Shown: piece by piece, positions 1,997 through 17,463 of the stretch
Layout: every line of letters begins with the position of its first letter
Numbering within the stretch: position 1 is the first letter of the stretch
Origin: a virus
DNA length: 23,801 nt
IMG/VR virus record: IMGVR_UViG_3300022841_000067
Location: 1-23,801 of that record
Strand: one strand, 5' to 3'
Translations under genes and position numbers: made by a program
Notes under the pieces: model-generated
The model's database searches: none
What the model was told of the DNA's origin: nothing
What the model saw: the letters and a program-made list of their open reading frames with translations, nothing else

Positions 1997-2152
1997 TCAA
2001 TCCTCGTTCCAAAATTCTTCTCGGATAGTTCTGAGCTTTTGATACAATGATTCAATCTGGTAAGTTTCATCGGTGTTGTTCGGCGCTGTGTTCTCTAGTA
2101 GCTCCATAAGCCACTCAGTATCCTCCACTTCTAGGCTTATGTTCTTATACAT
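1997..2152 (-). CDS. Small helical protein, 51 aa
   Basis: It begins MYKNISLEVEDTEWLMELLENT. A short strand is followed by two amphipathic helices (residues about 11-21 and 31-49), with no cysteines. GGAG lies 7 nt before the ATG, and the start overlaps the end of the gene at 2145-2315 by 8 nt. The phage-like overlaps on both sides support it. Function is unknown. Confidence 0.68.
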   Translation of the reverse strand: MYKNISLEVEDTEWLMELLENTAPNNTDETYQIESLYQKLRTIREEFWNED

Positions 2153-2315
2153 CAAGCAACTCCACATCACCTATGCCCATTTGAATTTCGTCGAAGTATA
2201 GCTTTTCCTCAAAATACAGCGCGGAAGCTTCTGCTCTGGCTTCCTCCTCGCTCTCGGCTTCGACTTCTATAACCGCGGTGTGCAATTCACTCATGTTTAC
2301 TAGGTATGTTGCCAT
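2145..2315 (-). CDS. Small alpha/beta phage protein, 56 aa
   Basis: It begins MATYLVNMSELHTAVIEVEA and continues with an acidic ESEEEARAEA helix and a final strand pair. It is the clearest relative of the proteins at 1621-1851 and 919-1113. A strong GAAGGAGA site precedes the ATG. It is the first gene after the promoter at 2345-2373. Confidence 0.75.
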   Translation of the reverse strand: MATYLVNMSELHTAVIEVEAESEEEARAEASALYFEEKLYFDEIQMGIGDVELLDV

Positions 2316-2344
2316 TTTGTCTCCTTCGTTTTGTTGTTAGTCAT

Positions 2345-2395
2345 AACTTACCACACTTTGTGTGACTTGTCAAGTCCCGTTACCTAATTGTTACT
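2345..2395 (-). promoter_or_regulatory. Leftward promoter with GTTACC box pair
   Basis: The minus strand carries TTGACA (2368-2373), a 17-bp spacer and TAAGTT (2345-2350). Just upstream lie GTTACC (2379-2384) and GTTACT (2390-2395), exactly 11 bp apart as written on the plus strand. This is the opposite orientation to most other box/promoter pairs in the window. The pair overlaps the 3' end of the gene at 2384-2506. Confidence 0.72.
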
Positions 2396-2506
2396 TTCCT
2401 TGCTCTTGCATTCTTCACAATGGTAAACGTCCGTTGCGAATAAGTCGCTGTTGTAATTGTGTTCTATGTAAAATTCCTGGCAATGGTCACACAGTATTAT
2501 CTTCAT
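2384..2506 (-). CDS. Zinc-ribbon protein, 40 aa
   Basis: It begins MKIILCDHCQEFYIEHNYNS and has a second knuckle, CEEC (C30, C33), giving a CxxC-x20-CxxC rubredoxin-like zinc ribbon with no other domain. The start overlaps the preceding gene by 20 nt and has only a weak GAG site, so coupling is likely. Such ribbons usually bind nucleic acid or proteins of the transcription machinery; its target is unknown. Confidence 0.7.
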   Translation of the reverse strand: MKIILCDHCQEFYIEHNYNSDLFATDVYHCEECKSKESNN

Positions 2507-2678
2507 GCACTCTAACATTACCACTCACCGCCAGACCCCAATGGTTGGATACTCCTATCGCCTTTTCTAGGGCGCTCCACGCCTTTTCGCTAGTCTTGTA
2601 ACCTTTGCCGTCACGTCCCTTGGCTATAATCGTGCCGTAGTTTTCTATCTCAAGCGCGTAATCAAATCTAGTTTGCAA
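2487..2678 (-). CDS. Hypothetical phage protein, 63 aa, TTG start
   Basis: It starts at TTG, preceded by AAGGAG at 7 nt, and overlaps the upstream gene by 11 nt. It begins MQTRFDYALEIENYGTIIA. It has a beta-rich first half (YALEIENYGTIIAKG), a lysine/glycine loop and a helix (EKAWSALEKAIG). Possibly a small fold like the other alpha/beta proteins here. No family is recognised. Confidence 0.72.
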   Translation of the reverse strand: MQTRFDYALEIENYGTIIAKGRDGKGYKTSEKAWSALEKAIGVSNHWGLAVSGNVRVHEDNTV

Positions 2679-2940
2679 TTGTAATCTCCTTTTCGTTGGC
2701 GTTATCCCAAATTGCTATCTGGTTCCAAAGCGTAGCATACATTCTGGCTTTTGTCAAGTTACGAACTAGGCGTGTCTTGTCTAGCCAGACTTTTCCTGAT
2801 TCGCTATCCGTCCACACTCCGACTATCATCCCGTTGGTTAGTTCTGAGGGGTCTAGTTCGCGTTCAGCGACCCAAAATCCGTCCGTCATTCTGATAGGAT
2901 GATAGTTGCCGTTCTGATAAAGGTAAGTGCCGTCTTGCAT
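2668..2940 (-). CDS. Hypothetical phage protein, 90 aa
   Basis: It begins MQDGTYLYQNGNYHPIRMTD and looks beta-rich in residues 1-55 (several aromatic and glycine turns), with a helical end. GGGAGG lies 7 nt before the ATG. It is the first gene downstream of the consensus promoter at 2969-2997. The role is unknown. Confidence 0.75.
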   Translation of the reverse strand: MQDGTYLYQNGNYHPIRMTDGFWVAERELDPSELTNGMIVGVWTDSESGKVWLDKTRLVRNLTKARMYATLWNQIAIWDNANEKEITIAN

Positions 2941-2968
2941 TAGTTTCCTCCCAATTGGTTATGGCTAA

Positions 2969-2997
2969 AGCCTAGCATAGTTCTTGGAGTTTGTCAA
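2969..2997 (-). promoter_or_regulatory. Leftward promoter, TTGACA-N17-TAGGCT
   Basis: On the minus strand TTGACA (2992-2997) and TAGGCT (2969-2974) are separated by 17 bp, and an extended TGC precedes the -10. It lies immediately beyond the stop of the gene at 3000-3113 and drives the gene starting at 2940. Confidence 0.8.
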
Positions 2998-2999
2998 GT

Positions 3000-3113
3000 T
3001 TATTTACAACTATTATGCCCGATAGTTTCCGAGTATTCAGCGAACAACTCAGCGCAACCGCAACATTCATACAGTTTCCATGAATCGCTCAGAACTCTCC
3101 TATATGGCATCAT
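3000..3113 (-). CDS. Tiny cysteine-rich protein, 37 aa
   Basis: It begins MMPYRRVLSDSWKLYECCGC and ends GHNSCK. The CCGC knuckle plus the late H and C could form a zinc site. The frame runs open to 3236, but only the ATG pair at 3113/3110 is preceded by GGAGG, and the first overlaps the upstream stop as ATGA. Confidence 0.65.
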   Translation of the reverse strand: MMPYRRVLSDSWKLYECCGCAELFAEYSETIGHNSCK

Positions 3114-3295
3114 CAGTTGTCCTCCACGAAGTTCAAAGTTTTGCCACAATTCTGGCAAGATTCTTGAGTATACAATTCCACGCAACCATACCATCCCGCA
3201 TAGTGTTCTGAGGATTTTGCACAATAGTCTCCGCAAAAATACTCCAAGTCTACTAGGTGACCAGTTGCGTCCTCGATAATGTTTATGTTGCTCAT
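3113..3295 (-). CDS. Small cysteine-rich zinc-binding-like protein, 60 aa
   Basis: It begins MSNINIIEDATGHLVDLEYF, followed by CGDYC, a lone Cys (WYGC) and CQNC. Five cysteines, two of them in CxxC/CxxxC knuckles, suggest a zinc ribbon. The ribosome binding site is weak (GGGG), and the start overlaps the upstream stop by ATGA, so coupled translation is likely. It resembles the other ribbons in composition only. Confidence 0.7.
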   Translation of the reverse strand: MSNINIIEDATGHLVDLEYFCGDYCAKSSEHYAGWYGCVELYTQESCQNCGKTLNFVEDN

Positions 3296-3408
3296 TTATA
3301 ATACCCCGATGCTATCTTGGTAAAGTGTGTCAACTTTGACTTATTGGGATTAGGGACATGAACATAAGTCCCGTTGGCTTTTGCCTTAGCTTTTGCTATT
3401 GTTGCCAT
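3292..3408 (-). CDS. Tiny basic protein, 38 aa
   Basis: It begins MATIAKAKAKANGTYVHVPN and is lysine-rich and strongly basic. It has the best ribosome binding site in this arm (AGGAGG before the ATG). It is the first gene after the promoter at 3437-3465, which suggests high expression. The basic N-terminus could contact nucleic acid; that is inference from charge only. Confidence 0.72.
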   Translation of the reverse strand: MATIAKAKAKANGTYVHVPNPNKSKLTHFTKIASGYYK

Positions 3409-3436
3409 AGTATTCCTCCTGATTGGTTATGGTTAC

Positions 3437-3490
3437 AACTTACTACAGATTATGGTGTTTGTCAAGTTTATTTGGTAACATTCTGGTAAC
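3437..3490 (-). promoter_or_regulatory. Leftward promoter with upstream GTTACC box pair
   Basis: The minus strand shows GTTACC-N5-GTTACC (3485-3490 and 3474-3479, 11-bp period), then 8 bp, then TTGACA (3460-3465), a 17-bp spacer and TAAGTT (3437-3442). The boxes abut the -35, as expected for a direct activator. It drives the basic 38-aa gene and those behind it. Confidence 0.75.
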
Positions 3491-3507
3491 GTATTTTCCT
3501 CCAAGTC

Positions 3508-3548
3508 TTTGTAGGTATTCTACAAAGCTTTTGTAGGTATCCTACAAA
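3508..3548. repeat. Two tandem TTTGTAG-N5-CTACAAA palindromes
   Basis: Two 19-bp inverted repeats (3508-3526 and 3530-3548) share the spacer GTAT[T/C] and start exactly 22 bp apart, about two helical turns. This is the signature of a dimeric repressor binding cooperatively on one DNA face. No gene for such a repressor is recognised in the window. Confidence 0.75.
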
Positions 3549-3567
3549 GTGTATTGTGTTATTATAG

Positions 3568-3773
3568 TATAATACAACATAAGCAAAAGTGTTGTATTGC
3601 AACATAATAGGGCATACTATAATAGGTCGTGTTATAACACTTTTAGGGCATTCCTGAGAGTTTCCTGATAGAAAATACTCGCGACACGCCGTAAAAAAGG
3701 GTCGGAAACGACAAATTTCGTGTGTTGGTTAGTAGTAAGTGTTATGTATTATTATAATTATAATACAACATAA
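3568..3773. repeat. Direct repeat TATAATACAACATAA, two copies
   Basis: The identical 15-mer occurs at 3568-3582 and 3759-3773, each preceded by AT-rich sequence with TATAAT or TTATAATTATAA. Partial inverted versions (TGTTGTAT) lie between the copies. The AT-rich cores could be unwinding elements or promoters. Confidence 0.6.
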
Positions 3774-3843
3774 CGCATAGTGCTACTATCTAGGGAAAAA
3801 GTGCCATTTTTAGACACCTTTTCCCAGACAACTCTCAGGAATG
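3649..3843. repeat. 14-bp perfect inverted repeat pair flanking 167 bp
   Basis: CATTCCTGAGAGTT at 3649-3662 is the exact reverse complement of 3830-3843. The right arm overlaps the 3' end of the gene at 3835-3948. The enclosed segment contains the 15-mer copy, the GAAA-loop hairpin and the 3793-3825 hairpin. Confidence 0.7.
3793..3825. other. Strong hairpin downstream of the 3835-3948 gene
   Basis: Two 11-nt arms (3793-3803 and 3815-3825) pair fully, allowing one G-T, around an 11-nt loop. The A/T runs lie inside the stem and no T-tract follows on either strand, so it is not a standard terminator. It may protect the 3' end of the leftward transcript. Confidence 0.5.
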
Positions 3844-3948
3844 AATTACCATCTTTCCATTATCATCAAGATAGATAGTCTTCCTGCTATCATCATCATG
3901 CCATCCTAATTCGGCATTCCAAGATTGACCTAATGGTGGCGCTATCAA
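3835..3948 (-). CDS. Tiny hypothetical protein, 37 aa, TTG start
   Basis: Read from TTG it gives a balanced peptide ending LDDNGKMVIHS, with a WNAELGWHDDDSRKT centre. The TTG overlaps the stop of the gene at 3945-4067 (TTGA), and GGTGAAGA upstream is a modest ribosome binding site. The composition looks like a real protein with a terminal beta hairpin. Lack of an ATG lowers confidence. Confidence 0.5.
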   Translation of the reverse strand: MIAPPLGQSWNAELGWHDDDSRKTIYLDDNGKMVIHS

Positions 3949-4067
3949 TCTTCACCGACTACGCTAAGGATTTTCAGGATAGCTTTCTCTATTGTCTCGC
4001 GGTCTTGTTGGTCTTTCGCGTCATAAAAAAATTCCCATAACTTATCGAACACTTGTTCGTTTGTCAT
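3945..4067 (-). CDS. Tiny helical protein with LexA-type box in its codons, 40 aa
   Basis: It begins MTNEQVFDKLWEFFYDAKDQ and continues helical to the end. GAAGGAGTAAG before the ATG is a strong ribosome binding site. Codons 2-7 contain the 14-bp palindrome CGAACAAGTGTTCG, identical to the operator-like box at 4365-4378. A promoter with a good -10 lies at 4096-4125. Function is unknown; an SOS-linked role is only inferred from the box. Confidence 0.68.
   Translation of the reverse strand: MTNEQVFDKLWEFFYDAKDQQDRETIEKAILKILSVVGED
4046..4059. promoter_or_regulatory. LexA (SOS)-type box inside the 40-aa gene start
   Basis: CGAAC-N4-GTTCG, preceded by T on the plus strand, matches the LexA/DinR operator type of Gram-positive bacteria. 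It lies about 30 bp past the expected transcription start of the leftward promoter at 4096-4125, within codons 2-7, so a bound repressor would act as a roadblock. Confidence 0.5.
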
Positions 4068-4095
4068 CTTACTCCTTCGTTTCGTTGTTGGTCAT

Positions 4096-4160
4096 AACCT
4101 AGCACACTTATTGGCTTTCGTGTTGCAGTTGGCAAGATTAGTTTATAACAGTTTGGTAAC
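4096..4160 (-). promoter_or_regulatory. Leftward promoter with GTTACC/GTTATA pair
   Basis: The minus strand has a -10 TAGGTT (4096-4101) with extended TGC, and a poor -35 (CAACAC or AACACG, near 4119-4125). GTTACC (4155-4160) and GTTATA (4144-4149) lie upstream, 11 bp apart. The ACACGAAA before the spacer recurs at the promoter near 4870, suggesting a shared weak -35 type that needs an activator. It drives the 40-aa gene at 3945-4067. Confidence 0.6.
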
Positions 4161-4300
4161 GCCCTTGATACTGTGCATAAGCCTAATAACAAGGGGTATG
4201 CCCTAGGAAGCTACTGCAGGCGTTCTAACGCCATTAGGTATCACTTGGTCATAATCATACCAAGGGGGTTGCGTTATGCCCTTAGCGAGGCGCTGGTGGC

Positions 4301-4355
4301 GTTACTAAATCGTTATCGAATCGGGGTTGACAAACTTTGGAAAGTATGCTAGACT
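4301..4355 (+). promoter_or_regulatory. Rightward promoter with GTTACT/GTTATC pair
   Basis: GTTACT (4301-4306) and GTTATC (4312-4317) are 11 bp apart and end 9 bp before a perfect TTGACA (4327-4332). A 17-bp spacer leads to TAGACT (4350-4355) with extended TGC. The expected start is near 4362, just before the LexA-type box at 4365-4378. No gene lies directly downstream on this strand. Confidence 0.72.
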
Positions 4356-4364
4356 ACTCCAATG

Positions 4365-4378
4365 CGAACAAGTGTTCG
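4365..4378. promoter_or_regulatory. LexA (SOS)-type operator at a promoter start
   Basis: CGAACAAGTGTTCG is a perfect palindrome that fits the Gram-positive LexA consensus CGAAC-RNRY-GTTYG. It occupies about +4 to +17 of the promoter at 4327-4355 and also lies ahead of the opposing leftward promoter at 4403-4431, so one bound dimer could block both. Confidence 0.62.
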
Positions 4379-4402
4379 GGTCGTATTTTGAGTGTCAGAT
4401 TC

Positions 4403-4452
4403 AGCTTAGCACAAAAGCGAACAAAAGTCAAGCCCGTTACCAAATCGTTATA
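4403..4452 (-). promoter_or_regulatory. Leftward promoter, TTGACT-N17-TAAGCT, facing 4327 promoter
   Basis: On the minus strand TTGACT (4426-4431) and TAAGCT (4403-4408) are 17 bp apart with extended TGC. Boxes GTTACC (4436-4441) and GTTATA (4447-4452) lie just beyond the -35, written on the plus strand. It points straight at the rightward promoter at 4327-4355, with expected starts only about 30 bp apart. Confidence 0.6.
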
Positions 4453-4470
4453 ATCGGCGCTCGCTGTATC

Positions 4471-4525
4471 GTTACCAAATCGTTACCAAAAGGGGCTTGA
4501 CAATTAGGGATTAGTCTGCTAGACT
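4471..4525 (+). promoter_or_regulatory. Rightward promoter with perfect GTTACC pair
   Basis: GTTACC at 4471-4476 and 4482-4487 (11-bp period), 9 bp, TTGACA (4497-4502), 17 bp, TAGACT (4520-4525) with extended TGC. Expected start near 4532. The -10 and initial transcribed bases (TAGACTAGACAAAAAACCC) are identical to those at 4976-4994. Confidence 0.75.
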
Positions 4526-4531
4526 AGACAA

Positions 4532-4587
4532 AAAACCCCCAAAAAAGTCGGGCTAAATTAGACAAAGCAAAACGCCGACTTTTTAGG
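4532..4587 (+). ncRNA. Candidate short RNA, about 55 nt
   Basis: A transcript from the promoter at 4497-4525 would run into a 10-bp stem (AAAAAGTCGG at 4542-4551 with CCGACTTTTT at 4575-4584) whose right arm ends in five T, giving a short structured RNA of roughly 55 nt. No open reading frame with a ribosome binding site is present. It converges on the leftward gene at 4608-4844. This is inferred from signals only. Confidence 0.4.
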
Positions 4588-4594
4588 GTCGGCG
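4563..4594 (-). terminator. Terminator of the 4608-4844 gene
   Basis: Read leftward, CGCCGAC (4588-4594) pairs with GTCGGCG (4573-4579) around an 8-nt loop, followed by TTTTGCTTTG. It begins 13 bp beyond the stop of the 78-aa gene. The same region can form the terminator stem of the rightward short RNA. Confidence 0.75.
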
Positions 4595-4607
4595 CTCGCG
4601 GTTAGGG

Positions 4608-4844
4608 TTAGCGTTCTAGCGGAACTGTGTCTAGTCCGTTCAGCTCTAGGGTCTCGTTTACCCAGTTGAAAGCGTTCAAGCGTCCCTTTTTACCTTTGCC
4701 AAATTCGGCGTAAGTGTCAATACCCGTCAGGCGCTCTAGGATTTTCATTCCTGGTTCTCGTGTCATAGTCATTCGCCTAGTGTCCCAACTCCAAATCTCA
4801 GTTCTTAGCGCGATACCGATTAATCTCAATTGAATTGAATCCAT
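4608..4844 (-). CDS. Hypothetical phage protein, 78 aa
   Basis: It begins MDSIQLRLIGIALRTEIWSW and then has a basic middle (TRRMTMTREPG, KGKKGR) before a final acidic helix. Net charge looks near neutral, with a positive patch that could contact nucleic acid. AAAGGGAG precedes the ATG. It is a single-gene unit with its own promoter (4870-4899) and terminator (4563-4594), isolated within the regulatory island, which suggests separate control. No family is recognised. Confidence 0.75.
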   Translation of the reverse strand: MDSIQLRLIGIALRTEIWSWDTRRMTMTREPGMKILERLTGIDTYAEFGKGKKGRLNAFNWVNETLELNGLDTVPLER

Positions 4845-4869
4845 TTTTCTCCCTTTGTTTGATAGCTAT

Positions 4870-4899
4870 AGCCTAGCACAGTTTTAGAGTTTCGTGTCA
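4870..4899 (-). promoter_or_regulatory. Leftward promoter of the 78-aa gene
   Basis: The -10 TAGGCT (4870-4875) with extended TGC is clear. The -35 is TGACAC (4894-4899) at 18 bp, or GTGACA at 19 bp. The GTTACC/GTTATA boxes at 4903-4919 lie immediately beyond, shared back-to-back with the rightward promoter at 4953-4981. Confidence 0.62.
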
Positions 4900-4902
4900 C
4901 TT

Positions 4903-4981
4903 GTTACCAAATCGTTATAAAAGTTTCGTTACCGAATCGTTATAAAAAAAGCTTGACAAACTGCAATTAGTTTGATAGACT
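4903..4981 (+). promoter_or_regulatory. Rightward promoter with two GTTACC/GTTATA pairs
   Basis: Two box pairs, each with 11-bp period (4903/4914 and 4928/4939), stand 25 bp apart. Eight bases after the last box comes TTGACA (4953-4958), then 17 bp and TAGACT (4976-4981). Expected start near 4988. It drives the stretch with the 16-codon frame. Confidence 0.72.
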
Positions 4982-4984
4982 AGA

Positions 4985-5095
4985 CAAAAAACCCGCGGGG
5001 ATTTTAGGGCTTAGGAATTTTGGGCAGAGTCGGTTATCTCCCGGATTCTCAGGAATTATGGGCATCCTGTTGTTTTGTATCCTCTATTTACTTAT
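4985..5095 (-). ncRNA. Candidate antisense RNA, about 110 nt
   Basis: The perfect promoter at 5102-5130 would start RNA near 5095, running leftward to a GC-rich CCCCGCGGG followed by TTTTTT (5000 to 4985) that may end it. It would be complementary to the leader, the ribosome binding site and 13 codons of the small rightward frame at 5058-5108. The terminator is weak because the palindrome leaves only a 3-nt loop. The RNA could instead read on to the gene at 4608-4844. Confidence 0.35.
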
Positions 5096-5108
5096 GGTGT
5101 TAGCCTAG
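5058..5108 (+). CDS. Candidate 16-aa hydrophobic membrane peptide
   Basis: The frame encodes MGILLFCILYLLMVLA, wholly hydrophobic and long enough to span a membrane. AGGA lies 3-4 nt before the ATG. It is downstream of the strong rightward promoter at 4953-4981 and overlapped by an opposing promoter. It resembles in size and character the toxin part of type I toxin-antitoxin pairs, but a 16-codon hydrophobic frame can also occur by chance. Confidence 0.3.
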   Translation: MGILLFCILYLLMVLA

Positions 5109-5130
5109 CAGAACGCCGACCCTTTGTCAA
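5102..5130 (-). promoter_or_regulatory. Leftward promoter, TTGACA-N17-TAGGCT
   Basis: On the minus strand TTGACA (5125-5130) and TAGGCT (5102-5107) are 17 bp apart with extended TGC. It lies at the end of the 16-codon rightward frame and reads antisense through it. A GCCGAC/GTCGGC inverted repeat spans its -35 and spacer and could be an operator. Confidence 0.75.
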
Positions 5131-5149
5131 GTCGGCGCTCGCTGTATGG

Positions 5150-5230
5150 TTATAGGGCCAGCACAAAGACAACCGCTAAGGCTAACCCGAACGCTATCCC
5201 TACTAAGAAATCTTTGGTTGATTCTTTCAC
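5150..5230 (-). CDS. Tiny single-pass membrane peptide, 26 aa, GTG start
   Basis: It begins MKESTKDFLVGIAFGLALAV and has a short charged head then one hydrophobic helix (residues 8-26). The GTG overlaps the upstream stop as GTGA, and GGTGGTGAC serves as ribosome binding site. Inner-membrane location with the head in the cytoplasm is likely. It might modulate a host membrane protein; no family is recognised. Confidence 0.55.
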   Translation of the reverse strand: MKESTKDFLVGIAFGLALAVVFVLAL

Positions 5231-5340
5231 TTTGTCACCACCAATTTTGTCTTGGCATACTTTTCGCGCCTAGTATTCCTTAGGTGTATCGCCAGCAACT
5301 TGGCGCTAGGTGTTCGGTTGCTATCTAGTCGCTTAGCCAT
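5227..5340 (-). CDS. Tiny basic protein, 37 aa
   Basis: It begins MAKRLDSNRTPSAKLLAIHL and is very rich in lysine and arginine. The start shares a base with the stop of the gene at 5340-5573 (TAATG), and the end overlaps the membrane peptide by GTGA, so the three genes form one coupled unit. The strong positive charge suggests nucleic-acid contact, which is inferred only. Confidence 0.62.
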   Translation of the reverse strand: MAKRLDSNRTPSAKLLAIHLRNTRREKYAKTKLVVTK

Positions 5341-5573
5341 TAGATACCCCAGGCCCTTTTGACTAGGTTGCGGTGGCGTGATGTTGTAACGCTTCCGCGT
5401 TGTGTCGGCAATTCGCCCATAATTCCAGAAGCTAAGTCAATAACGGCAATTTGGCTAGAGTAGCTGAAGACGGCGTATTGTGTCGAGTCAAGCCAAGCGC
5501 CAGACATAGAGTTGCCGCGGAAGTTTTCGCGGTTAGCCAACTTGGTTGCAATTGTCTTGTAGTTATCTTGCAT
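5340..5573 (-). CDS. Hypothetical beta-rich phage protein, 77 aa
   Basis: It begins MQDNYKTIATKLANRENFRG, then NSMSGAWLDSTQYAVFSYSSQIAVIDL and a basic C-terminus. The middle looks like three or four beta strands, a layout I associate with small proteins of actinobacterial and archaeal viruses; I cannot name the family securely. The frame stays open upstream from a TTG, but GGAGG stands 8 nt before the ATG ending at 5573. It has a palindrome and hairpin just upstream. Confidence 0.75.
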   Translation of the reverse strand: MQDNYKTIATKLANRENFRGNSMSGAWLDSTQYAVFSYSSQIAVIDLASGIMGELPTQRGSVTTSRHRNLVKRAWGI

Positions 5574-5592
5574 TGTGTTTTCCTCCATTGTG

Positions 5593-5609
5593 TTAGGCAA
5601 ATTGCCTAA
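5593..5609. promoter_or_regulatory. 17-bp palindrome upstream of the 77-aa gene
   Basis: TTAGGCAA-A-TTGCCTAA is a perfect 8-bp inverted repeat around one base, 20 bp before the gene start. It may be an operator or, in RNA, a small hairpin ahead of the ribosome binding site. Confidence 0.5.
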
Positions 5610-5961: not shown

Positions 5962-6046
5962 GTTTTAGGTGACCGAAAGAAACTATTTTATTGGGGCAGG
6001 GGCGCGTCTGTAGCCGGGTCACAACCGTGTGTAATATATTTTTGAT

Positions 6047-6081
6047 TTGGTTTTTTTCGATACACGTGGTAAGATATACCC
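6047..6081 (+). promoter_or_regulatory. First rightward promoter, leaderless type
   Basis: TTGGTT (6047-6052), 17 bp and TAAGAT (6070-6075) end exactly 6 bp before the ATG at 6082, so RNA would begin at or next to the start codon. No Shine-Dalgarno sequence is present, which fits a leaderless mRNA. Confidence 0.62.
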
Positions 6082-6321
6082 ATGAGCGAAATTACAGTTT
6101 CAATGTCAGGCTTTGGCCAGTACACACTTGCCCTCAGCATCGTGGATGCCGGACAAGAAAAGGACACAATAGAGGTCTGGATGGCGGTCTTTACTGACAT
6201 CGAGGGTGATTCCAGCTGGGAGGTTTACTTCGAGATGGGGCCAGACTACGAGGCATGGGACTTGATAGATGAAGCCATCACCGCTTACCGCGATACAATA
6301 GAGGAAGGCCACCCAACATGA
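6082..6321 (+). CDS. Hypothetical acidic phage protein, 79 aa
   Basis: It begins MSEITVSMSGFGQYTLALSI and is beta-rich in residues 1-55, ending in an acidic helix (WDLIDEAITAYRDTIEEG). It is the first rightward gene and is probably leaderless. Its end overlaps the next start by ATGA. Possibly related in fold to the small alpha/beta proteins of the left arm. Function is unknown. Confidence 0.78.
   Translation: MSEITVSMSGFGQYTLALSIVDAGQEKDTIEVWMAVFTDIEGDSSWEVYFEMGPDYEAWDLIDEAITAYRDTIEEGHPT

Positions 6322-14433: not shown

Positions 14434-17463
<3,030 letters not shown>

Follow-up and report, generated by a model that had tools for sequence, protein, structure and literature searches.

GTTACC direct repeats at helically phased distances from actinophage promoters: probable sites of a host response regulator, most likely MtrA

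Control of phage promoters by a host response regulator is known from cyanophages, whose PHO boxes (11-bp repeats) place phage genes under PhoB-type control. These boxes are GTTCACC repeats serving phosphate genes, as general knowledge has it, and the Streptomyces PHO box has the same GTTCACC repeats, whereas the boxes described here read GTTACC. MtrA, essential in Mycobacterium tuberculosis, is better known for control of the cell envelope, division, and osmotic state. The closest precedent is CtrA, whose sites in alphaproteobacterial phages led to a proposal of "lytic deferment" (PMC9437464). There, as here, sites for a host OmpR-family response regulator lie in promoter regions of unrelated phages of one host group; the phylum and the regulator differ, however, and CtrA binding was demonstrated by EMSA, whereas the actinophage boxes are known from sequence alone and the key evidence is the helical phasing of box to −35. 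Promoters bound by MtrA in Mycobacterium, Streptomyces, and Corynebacterium (PMC10609481, PMC5650626, PMC13189361) share with the phage boxes the direct repeat GTnAC(C)-N5/6-GTnAC, and the MtrA half-sites of Streptomyces venezuelae ssgB and whiI, at about −55 (PMC13189361), lie close to the phage box position. The phage boxes differ in serving phage genes, in being nearer consensus and far denser, and in their near-consensus −35 and −10 elements. Actinomycete GlnR boxes (PMC10704036) have the same 5+6+5-bp layout, 11-bp period, and GTnAC a-site, but their b-site is usually GAAAC, and their spacer and flanks are unlike those of the phage boxes. No link between MtrA and phages was found in the literature searched (open-license full texts).

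The stretch of DNA analyzed here (the window) is a 23,801-base virus record, a fragment of an actinophage-like genome. Small leftward genes at the left are followed by a control region and then by rightward genes, including terminase, portal, capsid/protease, both ribonucleotide reductase subunits, and tail fiber proteins. The best cultured matches to the terminase and capsid (33 to 46% identity) were mostly phages of Arthrobacter, Clavibacter, Microbacterium, Curtobacterium, and Streptomyces, and a Stenotrophomonas phage was one of the top matches; because most are actinophages, the host is likely an actinobacterium. Phage tRNAs as a host clue yielded one doubtful call among 11 relatives, and an Rfam search returned no match. 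The ribonucleotide reductase large-subunit gene (14825 to 15215) had 78% DNA identity to Erwinia phages, which is unexpected in an actinophage-like genome. An AT-rich region at 3500 to 3800 with nested palindromes (TATTATAATTATAATA, and GTAGGTATYCTACAAAG twice) may be an origin or operator region.

The repeat GTTA[CT]-N6-GTTA[CT] occurs 8 times in the window, compared to a mean of 0.15 and a maximum of 2 in 300 dinucleotide shuffles. All eight pairs fall within 2001 to 5600 (spanning 2.3 to 5.0 kb, the control region), where the shuffles had a mean of 0.04 and a maximum of 1. In a scan of half-site spacings from 0 to 30, spacing 6 gave eight pairs and each other spacing gave zero to two. All eight boxes have the direct repeat GTnAC(C)-N5-GTnAC with the 11-bp period of MtrA-bound promoters. 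The boxes and the promoters assigned to them are as follows, where d is the number of base pairs between box (5-base half-site) and −35, and reversed means that the box is oriented opposite to the promoter it serves.

2379 to 2394: box GTTACCTAATTGTTAC, reads plus, reversed, serves a minus-strand promoter, d = 5
2345 to 2373, minus strand: promoter TTGACA (2373 to 2368), N17, TAAGTT (2350 to 2345), preceding a 56-aa ORF that starts at 2315
3475 to 3490, minus strand: box GTTACCAGAATGTTAC, d = 9 from a minus-strand TTGACA
3437 to 3465, minus strand: promoter TTGACA (3465 to 3460), N17, TAAGTT (3442 to 3437), preceding a 38-aa ORF that starts at 3408
4145 to 4160, minus strand: box GTTACCAAACTGTTAT, −10 TAGGTT (4101 to 4096) 43 bp past the box, weak −35, preceding a 40-aa ORF that starts at 4067
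4301 to 4316, plus strand: box GTTACTAAATCGTTAT, d = 10 from TTGACA
4327 to 4355, plus strand: promoter TTGACA-N17-TAGACT, TG before the −10
4436 to 4451: box GTTACCAAATCGTTAT, reads plus, reversed, serves a minus-strand promoter, d = 4
4431 to 4426 and 4408 to 4403, minus strand: promoter TTGACT, N17, TAAGCT, served by box 4436
4471 to 4486, plus strand: box GTTACCAAATCGTTAC, d = 10 from TTGACA
4497 to 4525, plus strand: promoter TTGACA-N17-TAGACT, TG before the −10
4608 to 4844, minus strand: 78-aa ORF without assigned function, antisense to any plus-strand transcript from 4327 or 4497
4903 to 4918: box GTTACCAAATCGTTAT, reads plus, serves minus, −10 TAGGCT (4875 to 4870) 27 bp away, weak −35; precedes the 78-aa ORF (4844 to 4608) and is in tandem (25 bp) with box 4928
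4928 to 4943, plus strand: box GTTACCGAATCGTTAT, d = 9 from TTGACA
4953 to 4981, plus strand: promoter TTGACA-N17-TAGACT, TG before the −10

The earlier note had reported six pairs at 4144 to 4981 and two more to the left, and all are present (4145 to 4160 on the minus strand; 4301, 4436, 4471, 4903, and 4928 on the plus strand; 2379, plus, and 3475 to 3490, minus). The TTGACA-N17-TA[GA][AG][CT]T promoters it placed after four pairs were also found (4301, 4471, 4928, and minus-strand 3475), at 9 to 10 bp from the 5-base half-site or 8 to 9 bp if GTTACC is counted. For every one of the eight boxes, a promoter can be named that it would serve, whether on the plus or the minus strand. The note had overlooked that boxes 2379 and 4436 are the reversed form, standing upstream of TTGACA (5 bp) and TTGACT (4 bp), both −35s of minus-strand promoters. 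Also overlooked was the position of minus-strand box 4145 and box 4903, at matching distances from the minus-strand −10s TAGGTT and TAGGCT, with weak −35s. Six boxes adjoin a TTGAC −35; the assignments of 4145 and 4903, made from the −10 alone, are the weakest.

Other features of the region were also noted. A −10 of its own, TGGTAAGAT, lies nearly at the start codon of the first rightward gene (6082; region 6044 to 6082), which lacks a box; therefore, the plus-strand box promoters may not drive the rightward operon. A small-RNA reading of the leader past the 4497 promoter was dropped because it folded only slightly better than shuffles (z = −1.5). Three CGAAC-N4-GTTCG palindromes (993 to 1006, 4046 to 4059, and 4365 to 4378) resemble actinobacterial LexA (SOS) boxes. 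Of these, the palindrome at 4365 directly follows the −10 of promoter 4327 and is retained in the related locus L054; such palindromes are weakly enriched among relatives (15 versus 7 in the control).

A total of 80 related loci were found through the terminase, and in these the spacing-6 pair was enriched (80 versus about 6). When distances to TTGAC were tallied in these relatives with no selection on the −35, forward boxes had it at d = 9/10 and 19 to 21 bp and near zero elsewhere, apart from small stray peaks at d = 2 (four cases) and d = 34 (three cases). Reversed boxes had it at 5 and 15/16 bp and inverted boxes at 10 and 20 bp, again with near zero at other distances. Extended −10s lay 32/33 and 42/43 bp, or 27/28 bp, from the box; the window distances of 43 (minus-strand 4145, in the class one turn further) and 27 (4903) match these classes. 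Within two clearly orthologous blocks of L054, 0 of 50 half-site bases were changed, versus 10 to 13% of flanking non-coding bases; a third block, possibly a paralogous alignment, had 1 of 10 half-site bases changed. The earlier note had made conservation in related phages a test of its reading; the boxes are conserved there and also kept in unrelated actinophages. Among cultured phages, those whose terminases are nearest (Molivia, CN1A, and Cassita) lacked the spacing peak.

Spacings that recur one helical turn apart classically indicate a regulator obliged to face RNA polymerase. The fixed, helically phased distance from box to −35 is the signature of an activator touching RNA polymerase, and the boxes occupy the position of sites at activator-dependent promoters (class I/II type), upstream of the −35 at a fixed helical phase. 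Several predicted −35 and −10 elements are near consensus and could fire unaided, which counts against a need for an activator. Repression, in which the host regulator would silence the phage promoters until dephosphorylated, a deferment switch as for CtrA, could draw on the same flanking near-consensus promoters, on the phage precedent (PMC9437464), and on the ability of MtrA to repress as well as activate (PMC5650626). However, the boxes lie upstream of the −35 and −10 rather than over them, and they keep a helical phase that repression does not need; we rate this reading the least likely of those weighed here.

The same arrangement recurs in other viruses. A scan of viral contigs for the exact box, a gap of 8 to 14, TTGACA, N17, and TA returned 45 matches in 40 stretches, and 43 of the 45 had a gap of 10 or 11, out of seven values allowed; some stretches are near-duplicates, so there are fewer independent events. 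In comparison, a slightly stricter scan of 84,980 bacterial genomes returned 16 chance-like matches, with gaps scattered over 8 to 13. Unrelated carriers include L101 (P22-like portal, podovirus-like line) and L093 and L106 (DUF932/Gp88 proteins), with mostly actinophages as relatives. Through one weak match, a conserved non-coding region was found close to the right end in cultured Streptomyces Loccivirinae phages (36 records; Stanwilliamsviridae). TTTACC-N5-GTTACC, with slight variation in the half-sites, is present in 13 aligned Loccivirinae phages. TTGACA lies 10 bp past the box in Patelgo, Moab, Gilson, and Kenrey but 21 bp past it in Faust, TunaTartare, Sham, Annadreamy, Beuffert, Karp, and Comrade through an 11-bp insertion, a shift by one full helical turn; BillNye and Wakanda keep the box without TTGACA. 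Faust was isolated on Streptomyces lividans. There is also another box, reversed, with a second TTGACA 15 bp beyond it. All of these spacings (10, 21, and reversed 15) fall in the same phased classes as in the terminase relatives. Directly upstream of the Loccivirinae box promoter is TGTGGATAA, a motif resembling a DnaA box (L208, about 1480 to 1500; 13 aligned phages). The rest of the Patelgo right arm has no strict box. Arthrobacter phage Qui and Corynebacterium phage C3PO were set aside; each has one box-like sequence with no −35 at a phased distance.

Bacterial chromosomes also contain the box. GTTAYC-N5-GTTAYC was found 112 times in Microbacteriaceae versus 24 for the reversed control, with NlpC/P60 and M23 peptidases, sugar/amino-acid binding-protein genes, GDPD, and one ammonium transporter gene as neighbors. 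Actinomycetes at large had 11 spacer-matched sites versus 0 in the control; one of them is GTTACCAAATCGTTAT near a fatty acid synthase (FAS) gene, and Rv2524c, a gene returned to below, belongs to the FAS family. A gene-anchored check was mixed, with the box at 6 of 29 NlpC/P60 loci, 0 of 30 top M23 loci, and 2 of 57 amt and glnA loci. Of 98 Actinomycetes genomes, 87 have an MtrA that scores over the cut-off of its family. G244, a rhodopsin-bearing Microbacteriaceae genome read as a possible host type, encodes MtrA along with a GlnR-like protein. The strict pair is not enriched overall in the whole G244 genome. Separately, a bacteriorhodopsin-like gene in G244 is preceded by a box (GTTACCAAAACGTTAT) at about 50 bp (L185, 477365).

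With 8 boxes in 24 kb, the phage has a far higher density than the chromosome of G244, where 1.66 Mb contains 3 intergenic boxes, as might be expected if a phage-encoded regulator of another DNA-binding family used the boxes as its own switch; many phage ORFs match no family, and a weak "DNA binding protein" match was obtained for one. Such a regulator would have to be reconciled with the same box in phage lines whose portal and other genes are unrelated and with its over-representation in Microbacteriaceae chromosomes, and we consider it improbable. A mimic of the host regulator, which the earlier note had offered as an option, found no support: a search for the OmpR-type DNA-binding domain (Trans_reg_C, PF00486) was negative in all 20 virus records (31 to 72 kb, some maybe incomplete).

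An OmpR/PhoB-family regulator reading the 11-bp direct repeats, as first proposed, is well supported. Among the three named candidates, PhoP, GlnR, and MtrA, the PHO box, with its consensus taken from general knowledge, fits worst. The tightest of 294 M. tuberculosis MtrA fragments, from Rv2524c, contains GTTATCAAATCGTTAT (PMC10609481). Boxes 4436 and 4903, the best form, match it at 15 of 16 positions, with an identical spacer and the sole difference at a degenerate position. The Streptomyces coelicolor MtrA consensus is KTRACC-N5-GTKAC (PMC5650626). The S. venezuelae GlnR consensus, GTnAC-n6-GTnAC, overlaps that of MtrA and fits most boxes, and MtrA and GlnR share sites in Streptomyces (PMC10704036). 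The boxes match this GlnR form at 7 to 8 of 8 positions and the a/b form GTnAC-n6-GaAAC at 7 to 8 of 9 on the better strand, so that simple consensus counts do not separate the two regulators. GlnR, a nitrogen regulator that would couple phage transcription to nitrogen status, is further favored by its presence beside MtrA in G244 and by the host sites adjoining sugar/amino-acid binding-protein genes and the ammonium transporter gene. However, GTTAY describes the boxes better than the GlnR b-site of S. coelicolor and Mycobacterium smegmatis (GAAAC/GCAAC) does, the MtrA site shares their spacer, CAAATC, and the C following GTTAC, and sampled amt/glnA upstream regions rarely have the box; GlnR is an unlikely reader, if the leading competitor. 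MtrA is the better candidate, though not proven, above all through the 15/16 match of box and spacer; the gene-anchored check favored NlpC/P60 over amt and glnA but gave none at the top M23 loci. Since MtrA fits best and is known more for envelope, division, and osmotic control, a "nutrient-sensing" regulator, as the earlier note had it, is not established.

On balance, we favor the reading that the boxes are sites of a host OmpR-family response regulator, most likely MtrA, that activates phage sigma-A promoters. A head-to-tail MtrA dimer would occupy the pair of 11-bp repeats that adjoins the −35 on its upstream side, with a forward box spanning about −60 to −45 relative to predicted start sites. 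Bound MtrA would touch RNA polymerase and increase initiation at the sigma-A promoters of both strands in the phage control region, and its phosphorylation state may gate or boost phage transcription. We infer MtrA as the reader, phosphorylation gating, and the genes that gain, and activation over repression from the box-promoter geometry. A speculative gain would be the tying of transcription to envelope or growth state. A broader proposal, that several unrelated actinophage groups, cultured Streptomyces phages among them, each acquired MtrA sites on their own at a fixed helical spacing upstream of their sigma-A promoters, letting a host envelope and cell-cycle regulator activate their promoters and tie infection to host state, is put forward tentatively, at a little short of even confidence.

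Considering the near-MtrA boxes, the fixed helical distance, and the recurrence in unrelated actinobacterial viruses, these viruses probably let a host signaling protein switch on viral genes. Since cultured Streptomyces phages carry box promoters, the hypothesis is testable now. If true, natural promoter variants (10 versus 21 bp) would be available for study of the contact between MtrA and RNA polymerase, and viral genes throughout an entire host class would be activated by a host two-component regulator, a case open to direct test. These phages would then be the actinobacterial counterpart of the CtrA-linked phages, working by activation.
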